This document shows, piece after piece, positions 5,997-27,915 of a DNA stretch of 34,170 nucleotides. The notes below the pieces were generated by a model. It was not told the origin of the DNA. It saw only the letters and a program-made list of their open reading frames with translations, and did not search any database. This DNA comes from Candidatus Lambdaproteobacteria bacterium RIFOXYD2_FULL_56_26 (GTDB lineage Bacteria > SAR324 > XYD2-FULL-50-16). Both the position numbers and the translations under genes were made by a program. The stretch is taken from NCBI GenBank assembly GCA_001783715.1, contig MFNF01000025.1, positions 1-34,170 of the forward strand. Direction: 5' to 3'. Numbering within the stretch: the first letter of the stretch is position 1; every line of letters starts with the position of its first letter.

Positions 5997-6872
5997 ATGT
6001 TTGAAATCCTGTCCGAAATGTTGACCTTTGAGGGAATGGGTAGCCTCAGCCACTTCCCCAACCTCGTTTTTCTGCTCGAAGTCCTGGCCCTGCTTTGGCT
6101 GGGCAAGCTGGCCTACGGCTGGACCAGCCCCTTTAAGCTGGAGCACCAAATGGTGGTGGCAGACAACAAGGCGATCACCCTCAACTTCACCGCCTACCTG
6201 ATTGGCTTGGTGGTGATTTTAGAAGGGGTGCTCGAAGGGGTCAGCGATGATGTCCTGGCCAGCATGTGTGATTTGGCGGCCTGGGGCGTGATCGGCCTGG
6301 TCTTGTTGCTGGTCGCCGGGAAGCTCAATGACCGCCTTCTCCTGGTCGGCTTCAAGGCCCCGGTGGAGATGTTGGAACGGCAAAATCTCAGCGCCGCTTT
6401 GGTGGTCGCCGGGGGTTATCTGGGCTCGGCGGCGATGATCCGCTCGGTAGTAGTGGGTGAAACCCTGGGCTGGGCGCTCGACCTGGGTTTGACGGTCTTT
6501 TATTTTGCCTTGGGCCAGCTGGGCCTTTGGGTTTACGGCTGGCTGTACCAGCGGATCACCGGGTACGACGACCTCAAGGAAATTGCGGCCGGCAACCCGG
6601 CAGCCGGGATCAACCTGGGGATCAATCTGGCGGCCATGGGCTTTTTGATGGCCCTGCCGCTGCGCCAGTCCTATTCCCTGGTTTGGTACCTCGCTTGGTT
6701 TTTGCTGGGCAACGCCACCCTGCTGGGCTTTCGGTTTGCCTTGACCAAACTGATCATCCCCAGCCAAGGGTTGGACCAGGAGATCGAGCGGGACCGCAAC
6801 TGGGGCATCGCCTGCCTGGAAGGGGCCTTCTCGGTGGGGGCGGTGTTGGTGCTGCAAAACCTGTTTGGCTGA
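5997..6872 (+). CDS. DUF350-family membrane protein with four repeat units
   Basis: An integral membrane protein (291 residues from the ATG at 5997) with about eight hydrophobic segments. It contains four copies of a unit that begins with Asn followed by a small-residue-rich helix: around N57 (NKAITLNFTAYLIG), N130 (NLSAALVVAGGYLG), N200 (NPAAGINLGINLA) and N268 (NWGIACLEGAFSVG), spaced 68-73 residues. This pattern fits DUF350 (YjfL-type) domains, which have no established function that I can state. The frame is open to 5871, but the ATG at 5997 starts just ahead of the first hydrophobic segment and lies outside the divergent promoter region. It is the first gene of a plus-strand operon: 12 bases separate it from the Cys-rich protein gene, which in turn overlaps the DUF3334 gene. 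Confidence 0.8.
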   Translation: MFEILSEMLTFEGMGSLSHFPNLVFLLEVLALLWLGKLAYGWTSPFKLEHQMVVADNKAITLNFTAYLIGLVVILEGVLEGVSDDVLASMCDLAAWGVIGLVLLLVAGKLNDRLLLVGFKAPVEMLERQNLSAALVVAGGYLGSAAMIRSVVVGETLGWALDLGLTVFYFALGQLGLWVYGWLYQRITGYDDLKEIAAGNPAAGINLGINLAAMGFLMALPLRQSYSLVWYLAWFLLGNATLLGFRFALTKLIIPSQGLDQEIERDRNWGIACLEGAFSVGAVLVLQNLFG

Positions 6873-6884
6873 GGCCCGTTTTTG

Positions 6885-7412
6885 ATGAGCGAAAAAACCA
6901 TTTCCTTGGACCAGTTCCGCAAAAAGCGGGAAGAGGCCAAAGCCCAAGAGGAACTGGAGCCCTTTGAAGGCTGTTTGGTCTGGCTGCACTGCCCAAACTG
7001 CCAAAAGATCGAATACACCGAGGTTCGGGCCCCCGGTGGCCGGACCCACCGCTGTGGCACCAAAGTCGAAGAAGTTGAGGTTTTTTTGGACCTCCGGGCC
7101 GAATTGAGCTTTACCTTGGAAAACCTGAAAACCATTGAGGCCCACCTCCTGGAAGTGGGGCAGAACCGGCTCAAAAAGCTCCTGGCCCGGTCTTTGGAAA
7201 AAACCTTGCTCCAACTCAAAGCCAGCGAAGAAGAATACGCCTCCCGGTTGCAAAAAGCCGGAGGCGGCAGGGTGGTCCCCTACCCGCAGGAGACCCAACC
7301 GTTGGTTGAACGATTTGCGGAAGTCCAGATCAACCCTTTGGGGCTTTATGTCACCCCCTTTCGGCTGGAGCCGCACAAACGCTTCCCCAACAACACCAAG
7401 GAACCTTCATGA
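6885..7412 (+). CDS. Hypothetical cytoplasmic protein with CPxC-type zinc-binding motif
   Basis: A 175-residue soluble protein that I do not recognise as a named family. The N-terminus is charged (Lys/Glu-rich to residue 25). Residues 30-57 hold C30, the pair C36-P-N-C39, H55 and C57, an arrangement that could bind one zinc. From about 75 to 125 it is probably helical or coiled coil (rich in Leu, Glu, Lys). The ATG at 6885 is chosen over the TTG immediately before it. The gene lies 12 bases after the DUF350 gene, and its stop overlaps the start of the DUF3334 gene in an ATGA, so the three products are very probably translated together. The context suggests a partner of one of these two, which is inference. 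Confidence 0.75.
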   Translation: MSEKTISLDQFRKKREEAKAQEELEPFEGCLVWLHCPNCQKIEYTEVRAPGGRTHRCGTKVEEVEVFLDLRAELSFTLENLKTIEAHLLEVGQNRLKKLLARSLEKTLLQLKASEEEYASRLQKAGGGRVVPYPQETQPLVERFAEVQINPLGLYVTPFRLEPHKRFPNNTKEPS

Positions 7413-8281
7413 TCAGCAGTTCAGAAACGGTCAACGCCATTGCCCAGCTGTTTTGCGAGGCCACCCAAGAGGTGGTCGGCACCTCGACGGGCCAAGAGGT
7501 GAGCTACTCCCAGACCATGCAGATGATCCCTTCGATCCACCTGAGGCCGGACATCGGCTGTTTTGTGCTGTTTTCGGGGGACTATTCGGGTTTGATGATC
7601 ATGAACTTCGAGGGCCAAGCGGCGGTGGAGATCTACCGGCAAAGTATGCTCAAGATGGGTATGCCCGAAGAGGAACTTTCCACCGAACACACTGCCGATG
7701 AGGTGGTCAACGCCATTGGGGAATTGATCAACCAGGTGATCGGCATGGTCCGGCGGCGGATCGAAGAACAATACCAGTTGGTCGCCCACAACACCCAGCC
7801 CAAGGCGATTGCCCTGGCCACGGCGATCATCCTGAACATCGACTCTCGGGACCCGGCCAGCCAAGAGCTTTGCCGGAGGCTGTCCTTTAAGATCAACCGC
7901 AAAAGCTTCCACATTGAGCTGTCCTTGGAGCGCAGCGAATTTGTCCGCTTTGACGGCGGGGACGTACACCGGCCCAAGCACCACCAGAGCAACAAAGACA
8001 TCAAAATGGAAAACTTTGCTCCCCAGACGGCTTCGGCCCCCGCCCCCAAGGCGGTACAGGCCGACCCCTTTGCGGCAGCCCAAGCGGCCACCCAGTTTGA
8101 GGTGGTAGCGGCCCAGGACCCTTTCGCCGCTGCACAGGCAGCAGCCCAGGAAGACCCCTTTGCGGCGGCCCAAAAGGCCGCCAAAGCGCCTACCTCTGCC
8201 AAAACCGCAGCCAAACCCGCCTCGGCGGTGGAAGGGTTTGACTTTGAGGCCCTCCAGCGGCAGGCCAAGCAAGACCATTAG
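7409..8281 (+). CDS. DUF3334 / CheX-like protein with DPFAAAQ-repeat tail
   Basis: Residues 1-185 resemble DUF3334, a family related to CheC/CheX phosphatases: 'LRPDIGCFVLFSGDYSGLMIMNF' (46-67) and 'MGMPEEEL..EHTADEVVNAIGELINQV' (83-110). The helix at 97-110 holds two E-x-x-N patterns, E98..N101 and E105..N108, the catalytic pattern of CheX/CheC-type CheY-P phosphatases; whether it dephosphorylates anything here is unproven. Residues 190-290 form an Ala/Pro/Gln-rich, probably disordered tail with three copies of DPFAAAQ starting at residues 219, 237 and 249, ending in 'FDFEALQRQAKQ', a possible short binding helix. It overlaps the upstream gene by ATGA and ends 4 bases from the convergent gspK stop, so no separate terminator fits between them. 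Confidence 0.82.
   Translation: MISSSETVNAIAQLFCEATQEVVGTSTGQEVSYSQTMQMIPSIHLRPDIGCFVLFSGDYSGLMIMNFEGQAAVEIYRQSMLKMGMPEEELSTEHTADEVVNAIGELINQVIGMVRRRIEEQYQLVAHNTQPKAIALATAIILNIDSRDPASQELCRRLSFKINRKSFHIELSLERSEFVRFDGGDVHRPKHHQSNKDIKMENFAPQTASAPAPKAVQADPFAAAQAATQFEVVAAQDPFAAAQAAAQEDPFAAAQKAAKAPTSAKTAAKPASAVEGFDFEALQRQAKQDH
8063..8173 (+). repeat. Three DPFAAAQ-encoding repeats in the DUF3334-like gene tail
   Basis: Codons for Asp-Pro-Phe-Ala-Ala-Ala-Gln occur three times, starting at nucleotides 8063, 8117 and 8153. The spacing is 18 then 12 codons, and each copy is followed by more Ala/Gln. The copies use different synonymous codons (for example CCC TTT versus CCT TTC), so they look like a maintained peptide motif and not a very recent DNA duplication. 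Confidence 0.9.
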
Positions 8282-8285
8282 AAGT

Positions 8286-9347
8286 TCAATAAACCTGTAG
8301 GGAAGCCAAGGTCACCCCGGTGACCGAAGGCAGCTTGCCTTTGCCCTTGCCACCGAATTGAAGCCTCATTTGGGCGACCACTTGGCGGCTCAAGGAGCCA
8401 TAGTGCAGGGTAAAGCGCATCTCTACCAGCTTGGGCACCCCGACAAACAAAGCCTTTTCGGCCAGGGTCAATTGGTCGAACAACCCCCGGTTGGCCATTT
8501 CCTGTTCAAAGACCGAACCTCGCCGTTCAAAGGGGTGGTCAAAGGTGGGCTCCATCCCCAGGGGGTCTTTTTTGCTCAACACCTCCAAGAGTTCGCTTTT
8601 GAGCCGCCCGATGTTGGGGTAAGGCTCCCCGACCCCGGAGAAGCGGTCCAAAAAAGCGGAGATCTCGGCCTTGCTGGCGTTGTTGACCTCCAGGTGGGAT
8701 TCCAAGTCCCCGATCACCCGAAAGTTTTGCTCCAGTTCCCTTTGGGTCAGCCCCAACCGGACGAAGCTGGGCAGCACCTTGACCTCACTCAAAACGTCAA
8801 ACTGGGCATTTTTGACCTCAAAGACCGGGTGGGCCTGGGGGTATTGTTCCGCACCGTAAGGGAAATGTTGGTCCGGGTCCGAATCCAGGTCTTGGTAGTC
8901 GTTTATGGCGCTCATCACCTCCTCCACATTTGGGGCCAGGGACTGTTCCGCACGACCGGCATAAATCTGGTTTAAGGTCTGCTCCAGCAGTTTGGCCTGG
9001 GGGCTGGCGGGCTTGTAGATCTGCCGCAGGTTGTAAAGGCTGTCCAGGGAACGGACCGAGAGATTGCTGATCCCCGATTCCTCGCTCAAGGGAACGATCA
9101 CCCCCGGCGGGAACCGTTTGATCCCTTGGGAAGAACCCACCAGCTCCCAATAACCTGCCTGCCGTATCACCTGGATCAACCCCCGGACCACCGAGCGGCT
9201 GAGGTTCTCCAGCAGAAACCTTGACCTTGTCGCTTCCAGGTGCCGCCGCTCCAATGCCCGGTCCTCAAAGCTTTTGGCCAGGCCCAAGGAAAGGATCAAC
9301 AGGATCGAAAGGGTCATCAACAACGCCATTCCCGGTCGGCCTTTCAT
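8286..9347 (-). CDS. gspK: Type II secretion minor pseudopilin GspK
   Basis: The largest minor pseudopilin, placed at the tip of the T2SS pseudopilus with GspI and GspJ in the inner membrane/periplasm. The 353-residue protein begins 'MKGRPG' followed by MALLMTLSILLILSLGLA: a prepilin peptidase site after Gly6 and a hydrophobic helix lacking Glu at position +5, which is the typical exception for GspK. The long periplasmic domain contains helix-hairpin-helix-like stretches ('EVNNASKAEISAFLDRFSGVG') as in the family. Its start overlaps the gspJ stop by 4 bases. It is the last gene of the gspGHIJK operon, and its stop is 4 bases from the convergent DUF3334 gene. Confidence 0.92.
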   Translation of the reverse strand: MKGRPGMALLMTLSILLILSLGLAKSFEDRALERRHLEATRSRFLLENLSRSVVRGLIQVIRQAGYWELVGSSQGIKRFPPGVIVPLSEESGISNLSVRSLDSLYNLRQIYKPASPQAKLLEQTLNQIYAGRAEQSLAPNVEEVMSAINDYQDLDSDPDQHFPYGAEQYPQAHPVFEVKNAQFDVLSEVKVLPSFVRLGLTQRELEQNFRVIGDLESHLEVNNASKAEISAFLDRFSGVGEPYPNIGRLKSELLEVLSKKDPLGMEPTFDHPFERRGSVFEQEMANRGLFDQLTLAEKALFVGVPKLVEMRFTLHYGSLSRQVVAQMRLQFGGKGKGKLPSVTGVTLASLQVY

Positions 9348-10030
9348 GGGGACCCCCAGGTGCCCCCCGGCCCCATCGAGGGGTGCAGGTTGAGGGTAAA
9401 CTTCTGTTCCAAGGTGAGGCCGTTTTCCCCTTCCAGAACCAAGGTTACGTCCACCCCGCTGGGCAGGGGGGCTTCGGTGGAGGAGACCCAGCCGGGCTGG
9501 GATTTGTTTTCAAAGTCGTAGTAGGTCAGGTTGAACCCCTTGAGCCGGGTGGAAAGCCGGTGGACAATCGCCTCCCCCCCCGAATCCAAAGGCCCGCCGA
9601 CAAAAAAGGATTCTCGCCGGTAAAACCCCAATACCCCTTGCTCGTCCCGGTCAAAATAATAGCTGACCTCAAAGAGTTCGGGGTTGTAGGCCATTTTAAA
9701 GCCGTTAAAAAACTTCCCCCGAGAGTGGATCTGGAGGTCAATCCGGTCTCGGTCGGCCCCGGCTTCCTGGAGATCGGTGCCCAGGATCCCGCTGGGGTTG
9801 GGCTGCTCGGCCTTGGCCCCGGCCAAGCGGGTCAGGAATACCGCCGAGCCGAGGTCTTCTCGCAACAAGGTTTCCAGGTTGCGCAGCTCTTGGCGCAGGT
9901 TGGTGGTCTGCTCCAGCTTGCTGCCCACCCCTTCAAACTGAAAAAAACTACCCAGCAACAGGGCGGTCACCGCCGAGAAGAGGCTCAAGCTGACCAGCAA
10001 TTCCAAGAGGCTGAATCCGGGACGGTTCAT
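9344..10030 (-). CDS. gspJ: Type II secretion minor pseudopilin GspJ
   Basis: Minor pseudopilin of the T2SS tip complex. The 228-residue protein has a class III signal 'MNRPG' followed by FSLLELLVSLSLFSAVTALLLGS, with Glu at +5, so it should be cleaved by the prepilin peptidase after Gly5. The C-terminal periplasmic part contains 'FDRDEQGVLGFYRRE' and 'FNLTYYDFENK', typical of GspJ beta-sheet domains. Both ends overlap their neighbours by 4 bases (gspI upstream, gspK downstream), indicating translational coupling. Confidence 0.9.
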   Translation of the reverse strand: MNRPGFSLLELLVSLSLFSAVTALLLGSFFQFEGVGSKLEQTTNLRQELRNLETLLREDLGSAVFLTRLAGAKAEQPNPSGILGTDLQEAGADRDRIDLQIHSRGKFFNGFKMAYNPELFEVSYYFDRDEQGVLGFYRRESFFVGGPLDSGGEAIVHRLSTRLKGFNLTYYDFENKSQPGWVSSTEAPLPSGVDVTLVLEGENGLTLEQKFTLNLHPSMGPGGTWGSP

Positions 10031-10395
10031 TTGAGGTCCCCCCAGATTTGGGTGCTGTAATTTTTACTGACCCCTCGCTCCAGGTAGGTGAGGGTGCAGC
10101 GGATCTGGGAGAGTGGAAAACCCAAAAAGTCCTGTTCGCTCCGCTCCACCTTCCAACTGCCTCCGGCCAAAGGGTGAGGAGAAAAAAACTGGCCTTCCGC
10201 CGGTTCGGGCAGGGTGCCCGCCCGTTCGACGCTCAAGAGCCGGTTCATCGCTTCGTTTTGGACCGCTTCCAATTTGGCGCTACGGTCCAAAAAAAAGACC
10301 GCTTCCCCTTGGGACTGGACCAACAGGGCCAGGAGCCCCGAGAGCAGGGCAAAGGCGACCAACACCTCCAGCAGGGTAAAGCCGTTTTTCCTCAT
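10027..10395 (-). CDS. gspI: Type II secretion minor pseudopilin GspI
   Basis: A short (122 residues) minor pseudopilin, the expected size for GspI. The leader 'MRKNG' followed by FTLLEVLVAFALLSGLLALLV is a prepilin signal with Glu at +5; 'LLEVLVAFALL' is characteristic of GspI. The periplasmic part holds 'NEAMNRLLSVE'. It overlaps gspH by 4 bases at the start and gspJ by 4 bases at the end, so it is firmly part of the operon. The protein is thought to nucleate the pseudopilus tip with GspJ and GspK. Confidence 0.9.
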   Translation of the reverse strand: MRKNGFTLLEVLVAFALLSGLLALLVQSQGEAVFFLDRSAKLEAVQNEAMNRLLSVERAGTLPEPAEGQFFSPHPLAGGSWKVERSEQDFLGFPLSQIRCTLTYLERGVSKNYSTQIWGDLK

Positions 10396-10937
10396 GGCCC
10401 CACGGCCTCCCGGGTGAGAGACATAACGCCCATGACATCCTTGACCTCCAGGAACAACCGTTGTTTCCCGTCGGCCAGTTCCAAGGAAAACAGGTCCATC
10501 AGGCCCGCCCGGTCGATAAAGACTTCGGATTCCAACCCAAAAATGGGGTCAAAGGAGAGGGATTTAAAACCCATCTGGAATTGCCGGTCCCGTTGTTTTT
10601 GCACCGGCTTCATCTGCACCCCCGGCTCCAGGGCAAAACCGCTCAGGCCTTTGGCCAAATAGGGGCGGTAGGTCTCCGGGTCCGCACCGTCCTGTTCGTA
10701 AACCAGGACCTCCCCTTTGGCCGAATCCAGGACCAGCTTAAAGCCCCGCCCTTCAAGGAGAGCCTCTTTTTTTAGCCGGGAGACGAGGGTCTGGATACGG
10801 AGGGCATCCTTGTCCAGGGGACTTTGGAAAAGCAGGGAGAATCGAGGCAGCGCCAGCCCCAAGAAGAGCACCATCAAAAAGAGAACCAGGCTGACCTCCA
10901 GCAAGGTCATGCCCGGTTGTCGATTTGTCTTATTCAT
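10392..10937 (-). CDS. gspH: Type II secretion minor pseudopilin GspH
   Basis: A 181-residue pseudopilin with leader 'MNKTNRQPG' then MTLLEVSLVLFLMVLFLGLAL: a prepilin peptidase site with Glu at +5 and a Met instead of Phe at +1. The middle 'ALRIQTLVSRLKKEALLEGRGFKLVLD' resembles the GspH/FimT domain. It lies between gspG and gspI in the canonical order, which supports the H assignment over other minor pseudopilins. Its start overlaps the gspG stop by 8 bases (ATGAATAA). Confidence 0.88.
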   Translation of the reverse strand: MNKTNRQPGMTLLEVSLVLFLMVLFLGLALPRFSLLFQSPLDKDALRIQTLVSRLKKEALLEGRGFKLVLDSAKGEVLVYEQDGADPETYRPYLAKGLSGFALEPGVQMKPVQKQRDRQFQMGFKSLSFDPIFGLESEVFIDRAGLMDLFSLELADGKQRLFLEVKDVMGVMSLTREAVGP

Positions 10938-11364
10938 TCAACAGGTCTTGGGCGAGCCCTTCGCCGCCCACCACTCGGTCCGAGCCCAGGCACTTGAGTT
11001 CAAAGGCGGTCCCGTCGGAGAGATAGGCATAGTCCCCGCCCCAGGGGTCGGTGGGCAGGCTTTTTGAATTGAGGTAAGGACCCCGCCAATTCTGGGGAAC
11101 CATCCCCAAGGTCGGTTTTTGGATCAAGGCGGCCAAACCCTGCTCCGAACTGGGGTAACCGGAGTTGTCCAACCGGTAGAGTTCCAGCGCCCCGGCCAGA
11201 TTTTTCATCTGGATCTTCGCTTGGTCCACCTTGGATTCATCAAGTTTGCTGAACAAAGCAGGGCCAACCAAGGCGGCAATCCCGGCCATGATCACAATGA
11301 CGATCAGGATCTCGATGAAGCTAAAACCCGGTTTCCTGTGGAACCTGAACCTTTTTTGAGCCAA
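10930..11364 (-). CDS. gspG: Type II secretion major pseudopilin GspG (TTG start)
   Basis: Major pseudopilin subunit of the T2SS. I choose the TTG at 11364 because AAAGGAG lies seven bases upstream; this gives 144 residues, the usual GspG length, and a leader 'MAQKRFRFHRKPG' before FSFIEILIVIVIMAGIAALVG with Glu at +5. The frame is open to 11427, but the extra residues do not look like a leader. The C-terminal 'GGDYAYLSDG..FELKCLGSDRVVGGEG' carries the calcium-binding loop pattern known in GspG. It is the first gene of gspGHIJK; core T2SS genes (gspC, D, E, F, L, M) are not in this window. Confidence 0.93.
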   Translation of the reverse strand: MAQKRFRFHRKPGFSFIEILIVIVIMAGIAALVGPALFSKLDESKVDQAKIQMKNLAGALELYRLDNSGYPSSEQGLAALIQKPTLGMVPQNWRGPYLNSKSLPTDPWGGDYAYLSDGTAFELKCLGSDRVVGGEGLAQDLLNE

Positions 11365-11583
11365 GGGAATTCTCCTTTTTTTAAGACTTTCGCCGAGCCC
11401 CAAGAATGGGTTGCACGGGCCTTGCATTGTCGTTTAAAGAACCAAAGAGACCAGAGGAGCCCAGGGTTTTCCGCTAGGCCCCAAGCCCTGCCGCCGGTGT
11501 TGTTGGCGCTTTGGAAGCCAAAAGGCCGACCCTGACCCCGTCAGGCTACCTAAAAAAGATTTTTTTTTCATCCCCAAATCGCC

Positions 11584-14330: not shown

Positions 14331-16286
14331 ATGAAGCAACCAAAAAAAAACATCGCCCAACGATTCGAGACGGAACTGCTTTACGGTCGCCGTTCCCTCC
14401 TGTGGCTTTGGGTCCCCGGCCTGCTTGTCCTGTTGGTGTTTGCGGTGCTCGCAAGGCTTTGGGTCAACCACCAGTTTGGCGACCCCCTCGACCCTACCGC
14501 CGGGGAGCCCGGCGAGGCCTTGTGGCGGGCGCTGGTCGAAAGCCTGAACCTTGCTTCCTTGGGCAAAGAAGAGCCCTCTTCCACCGCCAACCGGCTGGTG
14601 GGGGTCTTTACCGCCTTGTTGGGTGGGCTTTGGTTGGTCTTTGGGGTCAGCGGTGCCACAGCCCGACTGGTGATGCGCCTGCACCAACAAAAAGAAGGGC
14701 AAGGGGAGTTCCAAGAGGTCAACCACACCTTGATCCTGGGCTTTGGGGAACAAACCGTGGATGTGGTGCGGGAGCTGATCGAAGCCAGCCGTTTCCACCA
14801 GGGGGCGGCCATCGTCATCTTGTCGGAACAGGAACCGGACCGGGTGATGGAACAACTCAAAGAAGGCATGCACAGCTTCGGGAACACAAAGATTCTCTGC
14901 CGCCGGGGCAACATTGCCAGTCCTTACGCCCTGGCCCGGCTGGGGGTCGAGCGGGCCCATTCGGTGATCCTGGTCAACCCGGCTTTGTCCTGGGAACACG
15001 GCAGCATCAAAAACCAGGGGGATTCGACCGTCACTCTGGCGATCATGGCCGTGGTCAGCGCCTGTTCCCAGCATATCCCCAACATGACCGTCAAAATGCA
15101 CTACAAGCGCAACCTCCAGGTGGCCCAAGGGGTGGCCCAGGGCAAACTTTTTGCCATCGAGGAGGACGAAATCCTGGCCAAGATCATGGTCCAGGCCTCC
15201 CGGAGCCCCGGACTCAGCCGGGTCTATTCCAATCTGGTCGGTTTTGTGGGCAACGAAGTTTACTTTTACCATCCCCCCAAGGTGCTGGTGGGCAAAACCT
15301 TTGGCGCACTGGCTTTCCACTTCTTGGACTCCATCCCCTTAGGTGTCCGGTACAGCCAAGGTTCGGTGGAACTGAACCCCAACAAGGACTACCTGTTGGA
15401 GCCCGGCGACCAGTTGGTGGTCCTCGCCGAGGACGAGCAGAAGATTCGGTTTTTCGACCGACCGGTGATTGAGCCCCGAGAGCTGGCCAGCAACGACCAA
15501 AAACAGGTGCAAAAACCCGAACATTACCTGATCTACGGTTGGAACAAAAAGACCCCCAAGATCATTGCGGAATATGCCTCCTACTTGGCCCCCGGTTCGG
15601 TGGTCAACCTGGTGGTGCCGGACATGAGCGAGCGCATGGAACGGCAATTCAAGGAAATGTTCAAACAATATACTAACCTGCAGCTGGGCTTGGGGCAGGT
15701 GAATCCGGGGGCCGAAGACTTTCCCGAAAAGCTCCAACCGGAACGTTACAAGGCGGTCGTCCTGCTTTCCTCCGAAGGAGACAACCCCCAAGAGGTGGAC
15801 AGCGCCACCTTCAGCCTGTTGCTGCGTTTTAGAAGCTACTTCCAGGAACGGGTCGAACAAACCGGTAAGGCCCCCAAGACGCAGTTGCTGGCCGAAACCC
15901 AGCAAACCAAAAACGCCCAATTGATGCAGGCGGCCGGGGTAAAAAACCTGATGGTTTCCAACCAGATTCTTTCCAAGATCTTGGCCCAGGTTTCCGAGGA
16001 GCCCGAGATTCTCCAGGTCTATGAAGACCTCTTCCGGGCAGAGGGCAGCGAGATCTATCTCAAGCCGGTAGAACTGTTTTTGGAGGAATTGGACAGCGAG
16101 GTCCACTTTGCGGACCTGATGCTTGCCGCCCAAAGGCGAGGCGAGATTTGTTTCGGGATTTGGCTCAAACGGCTCGAAGACAGCGCCGAGGACAACTTTG
16201 GCTTGTTGCTCTTGCCCAACAAGACCCAAACCTTCTGGGTCACCCATGGAGACCGGCTGGTCACCTTGTCGCCGGACAACAACTGA
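14331..16286 (+). CDS. CASTOR/POLLUX-related ion channel with RCK-type domains
   Basis: Resembles bacterial members of the CASTOR/POLLUX/SYM8 family, whose plant members are nuclear-envelope cation channels. At 651 residues it has an N-terminal basic segment, TM1 about 22-41, a loop with a probable pore helix (64-80, 'ALWRALVESLNLASLG'), TM2 about 88-108, and two cytoplasmic Rossmann/RCK-like modules. The first starts near 132 with 'HTLILGFGEQTVDVVRELI', the second near 528 of the coding frame's protein half with 'HYLIYGWNKKTPKIIAEY'. The pore loop has no TVGYG potassium filter, as expected for this family. The ATG at 14331 follows GGGGA. Its stop is 9 bases from the convergent J-domain gene stop. 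The ion and ligand cannot be told from sequence. Confidence 0.82.
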   Translation: MKQPKKNIAQRFETELLYGRRSLLWLWVPGLLVLLVFAVLARLWVNHQFGDPLDPTAGEPGEALWRALVESLNLASLGKEEPSSTANRLVGVFTALLGGLWLVFGVSGATARLVMRLHQQKEGQGEFQEVNHTLILGFGEQTVDVVRELIEASRFHQGAAIVILSEQEPDRVMEQLKEGMHSFGNTKILCRRGNIASPYALARLGVERAHSVILVNPALSWEHGSIKNQGDSTVTLAIMAVVSACSQHIPNMTVKMHYKRNLQVAQGVAQGKLFAIEEDEILAKIMVQASRSPGLSRVYSNLVGFVGNEVYFYHPPKVLVGKTFGALAFHFLDSIPLGVRYSQGSVELNPNKDYLLEPGDQLVVLAEDEQKIRFFDRPVIEPRELASNDQKQVQKPEHYLIYGWNKKTPKIIAEYASYLAPGSVVNLVVPDMSERMERQFKEMFKQYTNLQLGLGQVNPGAEDFPEKLQPERYKAVVLLSSEGDNPQEVDSATFSLLLRFRSYFQERVEQTGKAPKTQLLAETQQTKNAQLMQAAGVKNLMVSNQILSKILAQVSEEPEILQVYEDLFRAEGSEIYLKPVELFLEELDSEVHFADLMLAAQRRGEICFGIWLKRLEDSAEDNFGLLLLPNKTQTFWVTHGDRLVTLSPDNN

Positions 16287-26473: not shown

Positions 26474-27436
26474 ATGGATCTGTTGCAATGGGCCTTGCTG
26501 GCCGGAGGGCTGGTAGCCTTGACTTTGGGCGGAGAATTGTTGGTCCGTGGTGCCTCTCGTTTAGCGGTACGGCTAGGGATCACTCCTTTGGTGATCGGCT
26601 TGACCATCGTAGCCTACGGGACCAGCGCCCCGGAACTGGCGGTCAGCGTCACCGCCGGACTGGCCGGCAATGCGGACTTGGCGGTGGCCAACGTGGTGGG
26701 CAGCAACAGCTTCAATGTCCTTTTTATTTTAGGGGTTTGTGCCTTGATTGCCCCCTTGGCGGTCCAGCGACAGTTGATCCGGCTGGATGTGCCGGTCATG
26801 TCGGCCGCTTCGATCTTGATGATAGTTTTCGCCTGGAATGGCCAAATCAACGCTATCGAAGGGGTGATCTTTGTCGTTTTGGCAGTCGCCTATACCTGGT
26901 GGCTGATCCGTCTTTCCCGTTCCGAACCGGACCAAGGAGAAGCGGAGCCGGAGGAAGGGGGCTTTTGGCTGGAACACCGACTGTGGGGCCAATTGCTGCT
27001 GATTGCGGCAGGCATCGGTACCCTGACCTTGGGTTCCGGTTGGTTGGTGGACGGCGCTACGGCCTTGGCTCGCAGTTTGGGGGTCAGTGATGCCTTGATC
27101 GGCCTGACCATTGTCGCCGCCGGGACCTCCCTGCCCGAATTGATGACCAGCCTGGTGGCCACCTACAAAGGACAGAGGGACATCGCCGTTGGCAACGTGG
27201 TGGGCAGCAATATCTTCAACATCCTGTTTATCTTGGGGGTTTCTTCGATCATCACCCCGGGCGGGCTCAATGTCGGAGAGCACATGTTGGCCTTTGACAT
27301 GCCGGTGGCGCTGATCGCCGCCTTGGCTTGTCTGCCGATCTTTATCACCGGTGCCAGGATTGCTCGTGGGGAAGGGGCTTTGTTTTTGGGGGCTTATCTG
27401 GCTTACTTGGGGTACATGATCTACCCCTACCTCTAG
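26474..27436 (+). CDS. Na+/Ca2+ exchanger of the CaCA family (YrbG-like)
   Basis: A 320-residue inner-membrane antiporter with two inverted alpha repeats: the first with GTSAPELAVS (49-58) and 'NVVGSNSFNVLFILG' (73-87), the second with GTSLPELMTS (217-226) and 'GNVVGSNIFNILFILG' (240-255). The two GTS-x-PE motifs supply the Glu residues (E54 and E222) that bind Ca2+ in this family. An acidic loop (148-162) separates the halves. About ten TM segments. The ATG at 26474 begins right before TM1; the frame is open 33 bases further, but into the preceding hairpin. Its TAG stop shares CTAG with the stop of the convergent cheX. Confidence 0.92.
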   Translation: MDLLQWALLAGGLVALTLGGELLVRGASRLAVRLGITPLVIGLTIVAYGTSAPELAVSVTAGLAGNADLAVANVVGSNSFNVLFILGVCALIAPLAVQRQLIRLDVPVMSAASILMIVFAWNGQINAIEGVIFVVLAVAYTWWLIRLSRSEPDQGEAEPEEGGFWLEHRLWGQLLLIAAGIGTLTLGSGWLVDGATALARSLGVSDALIGLTIVAAGTSLPELMTSLVATYKGQRDIAVGNVVGSNIFNILFILGVSSIITPGGLNVGEHMLAFDMPVALIAALACLPIFITGARIARGEGALFLGAYLAYLGYMIYPYL

Positions 27437-27915
27437 CCTAAAAACTTCTTCGAGTCGAAGCAGGCTTCGATGTAATACTTTCCGCTCTTGGTCTCGAAGG
27501 GGATCAGGATGATCCTTGCGTCCACAAAGTGTTTGATCTCGTGGTCCAGCCCCCGGTAGGTGACCGGGATCCCGGCGGAGAAGTGGAAGCCCAGTTTGGC
27601 CAACTCACGGCGGGCCTCACCGCTGACCATGTTCACAATTTCCCCGACCATGTCCACGATTTCATCGTCAATGTCGGCGTACTCTTGGCCGAACATCTGT
27701 TGAGCGACGGCGAGGATGCAACTCTTGCTGAAACTGATCCCGATCGACCCTTTGGATTCTCCGGTCAATTCGATGACCGCCGAAAGCTCTCCCAGCGCCT
27801 TGGTGCTGGATTCTTCCTTGAGGGCAGGCCGACCCGGCTTGGACTCCATGAACGCCATGGTGCTCAAGACCTTTTTGGTCGCAATGATAAATGGGTTTAT
27901 GTATTCAACCTTCAC
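27433..27915 (-). CDS. cheX: CheX-family CheY-P phosphatase-like protein
   Basis: A 160-residue CheX-like protein, close to the length of Thermotoga CheX (about 155). The phosphatase helix 'DEIVDMVGEIVNMVSGEARREL' (84-105) contains the E92-x-x-N95 pair used by CheX and CheC to hydrolyse CheY phosphate. The N-terminal 'VEYINPFIIATKKVLSTM' and C-terminal 'HFVDARIILIPFETKSGKYYIEACF' are also typical. GTG start at 27915 with GAGGTG upstream; the start overlaps the rluD stop by 11 bases. No cheY, cheA or receptor gene lies in the window, so the response regulator it serves is unknown. It shares a CTAG stop with the convergent exchanger gene. Confidence 0.88.
   Translation of the reverse strand: MKVEYINPFIIATKKVLSTMAFMESKPGRPALKEESSTKALGELSAVIELTGESKGSIGISFSKSCILAVAQQMFGQEYADIDDEIVDMVGEIVNMVSGEARRELAKLGFHFSAGIPVTYRGLDHEIKHFVDARIILIPFETKSGKYYIEACFDSKKFLG

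Follow-up and report, generated by a model that had tools for sequence, protein, structure and literature searches.

A CheX-type DUF3334 protein and a SAR324 core zinc-ribbon-like protein in a family-wide three-gene unit

Closest described systems and layout of the locus

The CheX proteins of Thermotoga, Borrelia, and Desulfovibrio (PF13690) are response-regulator phosphatases, and the glutamate and asparagine of their ExxN motif are required for activity (PMC3510030). FliY, a CheC-type phosphatase of the flagellar C-ring, carries a CheC/CheX-class phosphatase domain together with an EIDALL motif; phosphorylated CheY (CheY-P) binds to this motif in both FliM and FliY (PMC9126983). In other bacteria, proteins of the YjfL/DUF350 type, among them an 8-TM form, occur with PspA-linked operons that encode a polyamine-type enzyme or a potassium channel (PMC11237479). 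Small zinc-ribbon proteins, such as RNHCP and the TFIIB-type ribbons, have a CxxC...HxC metal-type site. Here, we describe a SAR324 locus that encodes a DUF350 protein, a zinc-ribbon-like protein (the Cys protein), and a DUF3334 protein of CheX type.

The window, that is, the whole 34,170-nucleotide stretch of DNA that was analyzed, spans one complete contig; the SAR324 genome to which it belongs is 3.1 Mb in size. On its forward strand, the first gene of the trio (5997–6872, +) encodes a DUF350 (YjfL-type) membrane protein of 291 aa, the second (6885–7412, +) encodes the Cys protein of 175 aa with a CPxC...GRxHxCG pattern, and the third (7409–8281, +) encodes the DUF3334 protein of 290 aa. 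The open reading frames and their spacing were as given in the first-pass annotation, with a gap of 12 bases between the DUF350 and Cys genes and a 4-base ATGA overlap by which the Cys gene and DUF3334 (start at 7409) are translationally coupled in the window genome. The conserved start of the Cys gene is the ATG at 6885, with an alternative TTG at 6882. The 4-base overlap is peculiar to the window genome, with distances of approximately 12 to 362 bp in its relatives. All three proteins are approximately 42–60% identical to the counterparts in relatives, and because the relatives keep the gene order at this level of identity, the three are genuine genes and not chance open reading frames.

The DUF350 protein matched its Pfam family with E = 2.5e-43 (147.7 bits against a cut-off of 26) in two tandem repeats at 6060–6449 and 6480–6854, and it was 47–52% identical in seven family members. 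A sequence search of the PDB found no relatives of this protein. The DUF350 repeats are held in common with the PspA-linked YjfL operons, in which the 8-TM form has also been described (PMC11237479). However, the partners differ; here, DUF350 is accompanied by a zinc-ribbon-like protein and a phosphatase of CheX type. No PspA, spermidine-synthase-like, ATP-grasp, or potassium-channel partner was found at the trio locus, where DUF350 has as neighbors the Cys gene, DUF3334, uvrA, and the pseudopilin genes.

CheX-type domain and C-terminal tail of DUF3334

The Pfam scan of the third gene product returned DUF3334 (PF11813; E = 1.5e-50, 172.5 bits against a cut-off of 25.2) and CheX (E = 4e-8). In the AF2 model, built from a 19-sequence alignment, the CheX-like domain is predicted with confidence and the tail behind it is disordered. 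The best PDB match of this model by Foldseek was 3hm4 (E = 1.3e-11, TM(target) 0.84), with TM(target) values of 0.84 to 1xko and 0.86 to 6vpw. The top matches were all CheX or CheX-like entries (3hm4, 3h4y, 1squ, 6vpw, and 1xko), and FliY, CheC, and FliM ranked lower. The DUF3334 profile also retrieved the CheX structures 3hm4 and 3h4y from the PDB by sequence, with the glutamate and asparagine aligned. In this profile alignment, 'GElvNqiiGkvR' lies over 'GEVTNMISGQAR', and the catalytic-type motif E105-L-I-N108 (7721–7732, +) is aligned with GEVTN of the Desulfovibrio CheX 3hm4. G104-E105-x-x-N108 was invariant in all 19 DUF3334 proteins, distant paralogues included. The third gene encodes a protein of the response-regulator-phosphatase (CheX) type, as had been proposed. 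DUF3334 and CheX have the same fold (TM 0.81–0.86 for the closest entries), ExxN helix, and N-G-R context, whereas their identity is approximately 20% or less and DUF3334 forms its own Pfam family with a long disordered tail bearing one or more FliM-like peptides. The class assignment of DUF3334 as a putative CheX/CheC-class phosphatase, made from sequence and modeled fold, is well supported.

The literature search on DUF3334 found no paper and no report of phosphatase activity or CheY binding. A paper on HubP of V. cholerae was considered as a lead and set aside; going by their descriptions, VC1380 and VC1210 have no relation to DUF3334, which leaves VC0377 (CheX) as the one relevant protein. 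The window also contains a canonical CheX gene (27433–27915, −), whose product has GEIVN and matches its Pfam family with E = 4.6e-22; a pseudouridine synthase gene lies immediately upstream of it. The window genome has a second, tailless DUF3334 gene near a TerB-like gene (L022:6502–7269, G000:C18). A tailless DUF3334 paralogue was also present in another genome (G049, L031).

The repeat tail noted in the third gene product is real. Its low-complexity region (7955–8239, +) contains three copies of DPFAAAQ and is predicted to be disordered, with pLDDT values below 50 for most of residues 206–274. At its end lies a D-F-E-A-L peptide (8240–8254, +) that resembles the EIDALL motif of FliM, and a C-terminal helix is predicted at residues 279–288 (pLDDT approximately 81). 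The FliM N termini of the same SAR324 genomes read VLSQxEVD[AS]LL. Of the 16 DUF3334 tails, 13 had the class motif D[FI][DE][AS]L within their final 20 residues, compared with an average of 0.16 and a maximum of 2 for shuffled tails; among the other proteins of the same loci, 1 of 396 had it. The pattern was derived from FliM residues by means of conservative residue classes, and the comparison is partly post hoc because it was the sequences that had first drawn attention to the motif. The tail-end peptides included SQADIDALF (L032), IDFDALL (L027), LDIEALL (L030), PDIDAIM (L048), and FDFEALQ (window). The tails of L032 (3463–4437) and L033 (6714–7556) bear seven and five copies of the motif, respectively, in QPDIDALM-type repeats that end with SQ[AS]DIDALF. 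The motif was absent from tailless DUF3334 and from an Aeromonas homologue. In a substitution-matrix test against FliM, the tail peptide was mostly nonsignificant in single proteins, that of the window included; the class-pattern comparison over all tails was significant. The window copy alone scored weakly, and the case for the peptide rests on the family pattern.

From these sequences, we infer that the DUF3334 tail may act as a CheY-P-docking peptide, and this candidate docking tail is a new feature of DUF3334. A pairing of a CheC/CheX-class phosphatase domain with a peptide related to EIDALL would be shared with FliY, and CheY-P binding by the DUF3334 peptide is predicted. The two proteins differ in that the peptide of FliY is N-terminal and its FliN domain anchors the protein in the C-ring, whereas the peptide of DUF3334 is C-terminal and sometimes repeated. 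No FliN (SpoA) domain was detected in DUF3334 by the Pfam scan, and the remainder of the protein is the disordered tail.

Distribution of the trio and of the Cys protein in SAR324

The phylum sample comprised 52 SAR324 genomes, 10 of them from the family of the window genome. The order DUF350–Cys–DUF3334 was found in 8 of these 10 genomes. The first-pass annotation had named adjacency in this genome only as the finding that would speak against its proposal, and such uniqueness is ruled out by the same order in the other family genomes. The DUF350 gene adjoins the Cys gene in 10 of 10 family genomes, two of which lack DUF3334 alongside, and in one genome, a gene for an MscS-type mechanosensitive channel sits between the second and third genes. 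No trio was found in the phylum sample outside this one family; DUF3334 is present in 14 of the 52 genomes and stands alone in the other families. The three-gene unit is real and family-wide.

In most family loci, the trio is flanked by uvrA (divergent) and a pseudopilin operon (convergent), and these flanks are about as conserved as the trio itself. Since the whole block is syntenic, unrelated flanks included, adjacency is weak evidence for a joint function of the trio, and a single joint mechanism is a possible hypothesis. In the DUF3334 tree, the deep forks were not resolved and the operon copies did not form one supported clade, so that the tree does not establish that the trio was inherited vertically. 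In the window, the pseudopilin operon (8286–11427, −), which consists of GspG and weak GspI/J/K-like minor pseudopilins, is convergent with the trio and is conserved alongside it in the family.

The Cys/His site ascribed to the second gene product was confirmed as C36-x2-C39...H55-x-C57, and these four putative metal ligands are invariant in 14 diverse relatives. No Pfam family reached its cut-off for this protein (RNHCP, 16.1 bits against 24; Zn_ribbon_TFIIB, 13.3 bits against 22). It has the CxxC...HxC metal-type site in common with the small zinc ribbons, with these subthreshold scores, but differs from them in an extra helical hairpin and a conserved C terminus, for which the PDB gave no match. 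The AF2 model had a pLDDT of 86, and no PDB relatives were found by sequence or by fold. In a profile search, the Cys protein was single-copy in 49 of 52 SAR324 genomes; a few of the genomes are fragmentary, and there the one copy was reported as two pieces. It occurred also in genomes that lack DUF3334 as well as any MCP or CheW match. It was absent from 10 non-SAR324 genomes holding DUF3334 or CheX and was not found in the plasmids searched; a search of 297 genomes from another phylum yielded one marginal partial match (E = 2e-4), which was treated as chance. The Cys protein is a SAR324 core protein, and a single-copy, zinc-ribbon-like protein that has neither a Pfam family nor a PDB fold match is hereby identified as core to this abundant deep-ocean phylum.

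Depending on the lineage, the Cys gene lies beside recR-tyrS, tgt, DUF350-CheX, or a gene for a CheY-like protein or a chemoreceptor domain. In most genomes of one SAR324 family (f4), recR(-tyrS) lies 6–29 bp downstream of the Cys gene, with an FGE-sulfatase-domain gene inserted in some genera, and in another family (f3), tgt adjoins it. These changing neighbors indicate that the basic job of the Cys protein is independent of DUF350 and DUF3334. The role of adaptor that had been suggested for it is weakened, as the protein occurs in nearly all genomes of the sample and beside other genes elsewhere.

Two of these arrangements involve a 4-base overlap between the Cys gene and the gene upstream of it. 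In one genus (6 genomes; L194–L197, L122, and L123), the upstream gene encodes a CheY-like single-domain receiver, with recR and tyrS downstream. In 2 genomes of another genus (L124 and L134), it encodes a membrane protein with an MCP signaling domain, and an FGE-sulfatase-domain gene follows.

Chemotaxis context and explanations of the locus

The locus had been assigned to a system without classical chemoreceptors, which is wrong; the window genome has 23 MCP-signal matches, 13 CheW matches, and FliM, and it encodes 113 receiver domains. DUF3334 was present in 14 of the 21 SAR324 genomes with at least six MCP matches and in 0 of the 31 with fewer (simple Fisher p approximately 7e-8, uncorrected for relatedness). 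This co-occurrence fits a role in chemotaxis-type signaling, although relatedness and genome size confound it. Because the window genome also has a canonical CheX and a second DUF3334, the substrate of the trio DUF3334 may be a nonmotor receiver. One DUF3334 gene is followed by a gene for a protein with a weak receiver-domain match. FliM was found in all 52 SAR324 genomes, 11 of which gave no MCP match: some of the small or incomplete genomes have flagella but no detected chemoreceptor.

The third gene probably encodes a CheX-fold CheY-P phosphatase with a docking peptide, acting in ordinary flagellar chemotaxis or response-regulator signaling. The tail peptide would bind phosphorylated CheY or a CheY-like receiver on the alpha4/alpha5 face, as that of FliM does, and would tether the substrate for removal of its phosphate by the ExxN helix. 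The Cys protein has a basic role independent of the trio operon and, in one SAR324 family, has been joined to an 8-TM-type DUF350 protein and the phosphatase. Hypothetically, co-expression, and perhaps membrane recruitment, of the phosphatase could link the state of the envelope to CheY-P decay. FliM shares the fold and is not a phosphatase in most species, and the DUF3334 tail resembles its docking peptide, so that DUF3334 might instead be a catalytically dead scaffold of the FliM/FliN kind that only binds receivers; we consider this quite improbable, since a pure scaffold would not need the catalytic glutamate and asparagine, which are invariant even in the distant paralogues.

The relation among the three genes allows other readings. 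The Cys protein may serve a core process and DUF3334 may separately serve chemotaxis, the genes merely sharing a promoter, which we regard as a serious possibility although we lean against it. The neighbors recR, tyrS, and tgt, including the close spacing to recR in f4, and the divergent uvrA hint at nucleic-acid metabolism; the Cys protein also occurs in genomes without an MCP or CheW match, and the family-wide synteny takes in unrelated flanks. Against such separate roles, separate lineages have the Cys gene in tight contact with a chemotaxis-type gene (CheX, CheY-like, or MCP-domain), which is suggestive of a signaling link; the chance of such contacts is low by a rough, post hoc estimate in which chemotaxis-type genes make up approximately 1–5% of a genome. 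At the other extreme, DUF350 could sense the membrane or ion state, with the zinc protein as cytoplasmic adaptor and DUF3334 as output phosphatase in one complex. The shared gene order in the family, with DUF350 and the Cys gene always adjacent, is consistent with this, as are the translational coupling in the window genome, the MscS-type channel gene inside one operon, and the association of DUF350/YjfL elsewhere with PspA and with a potassium channel (PMC11237479). However, the Cys protein is found without the other two in most of the phylum, two family genomes have DUF350-Cys without an adjacent DUF3334, the intergenic distances are variable, and uvrA and the pseudopilin genes are about equally syntenic, so that a single complex seems rather unlikely.

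For DUF3334, a Pfam family of unknown function, the phosphatase reading supplies a specific activity that can be tested, along with an architecture that is unusual in combining a phosphatase with motor-mimic docking peptides. In its boldest form, which we hold to be unlikely, tailed DUF3334 would be a new class of chemotaxis phosphatase with one to seven FliM-mimicking CheY-P-docking peptides, a freely diffusing counterpart of FliY, and in one SAR324 family, it would be wired through the zinc protein to DUF350, so that the envelope state tunes the lifetime of CheY-P. Elsewhere in the window, a gene for a Castor/Pollux-type ion-channel protein (14331–16286, +; Pfam E = 5.7e-28) lies divergent from an ABC-F-like ATPase gene.
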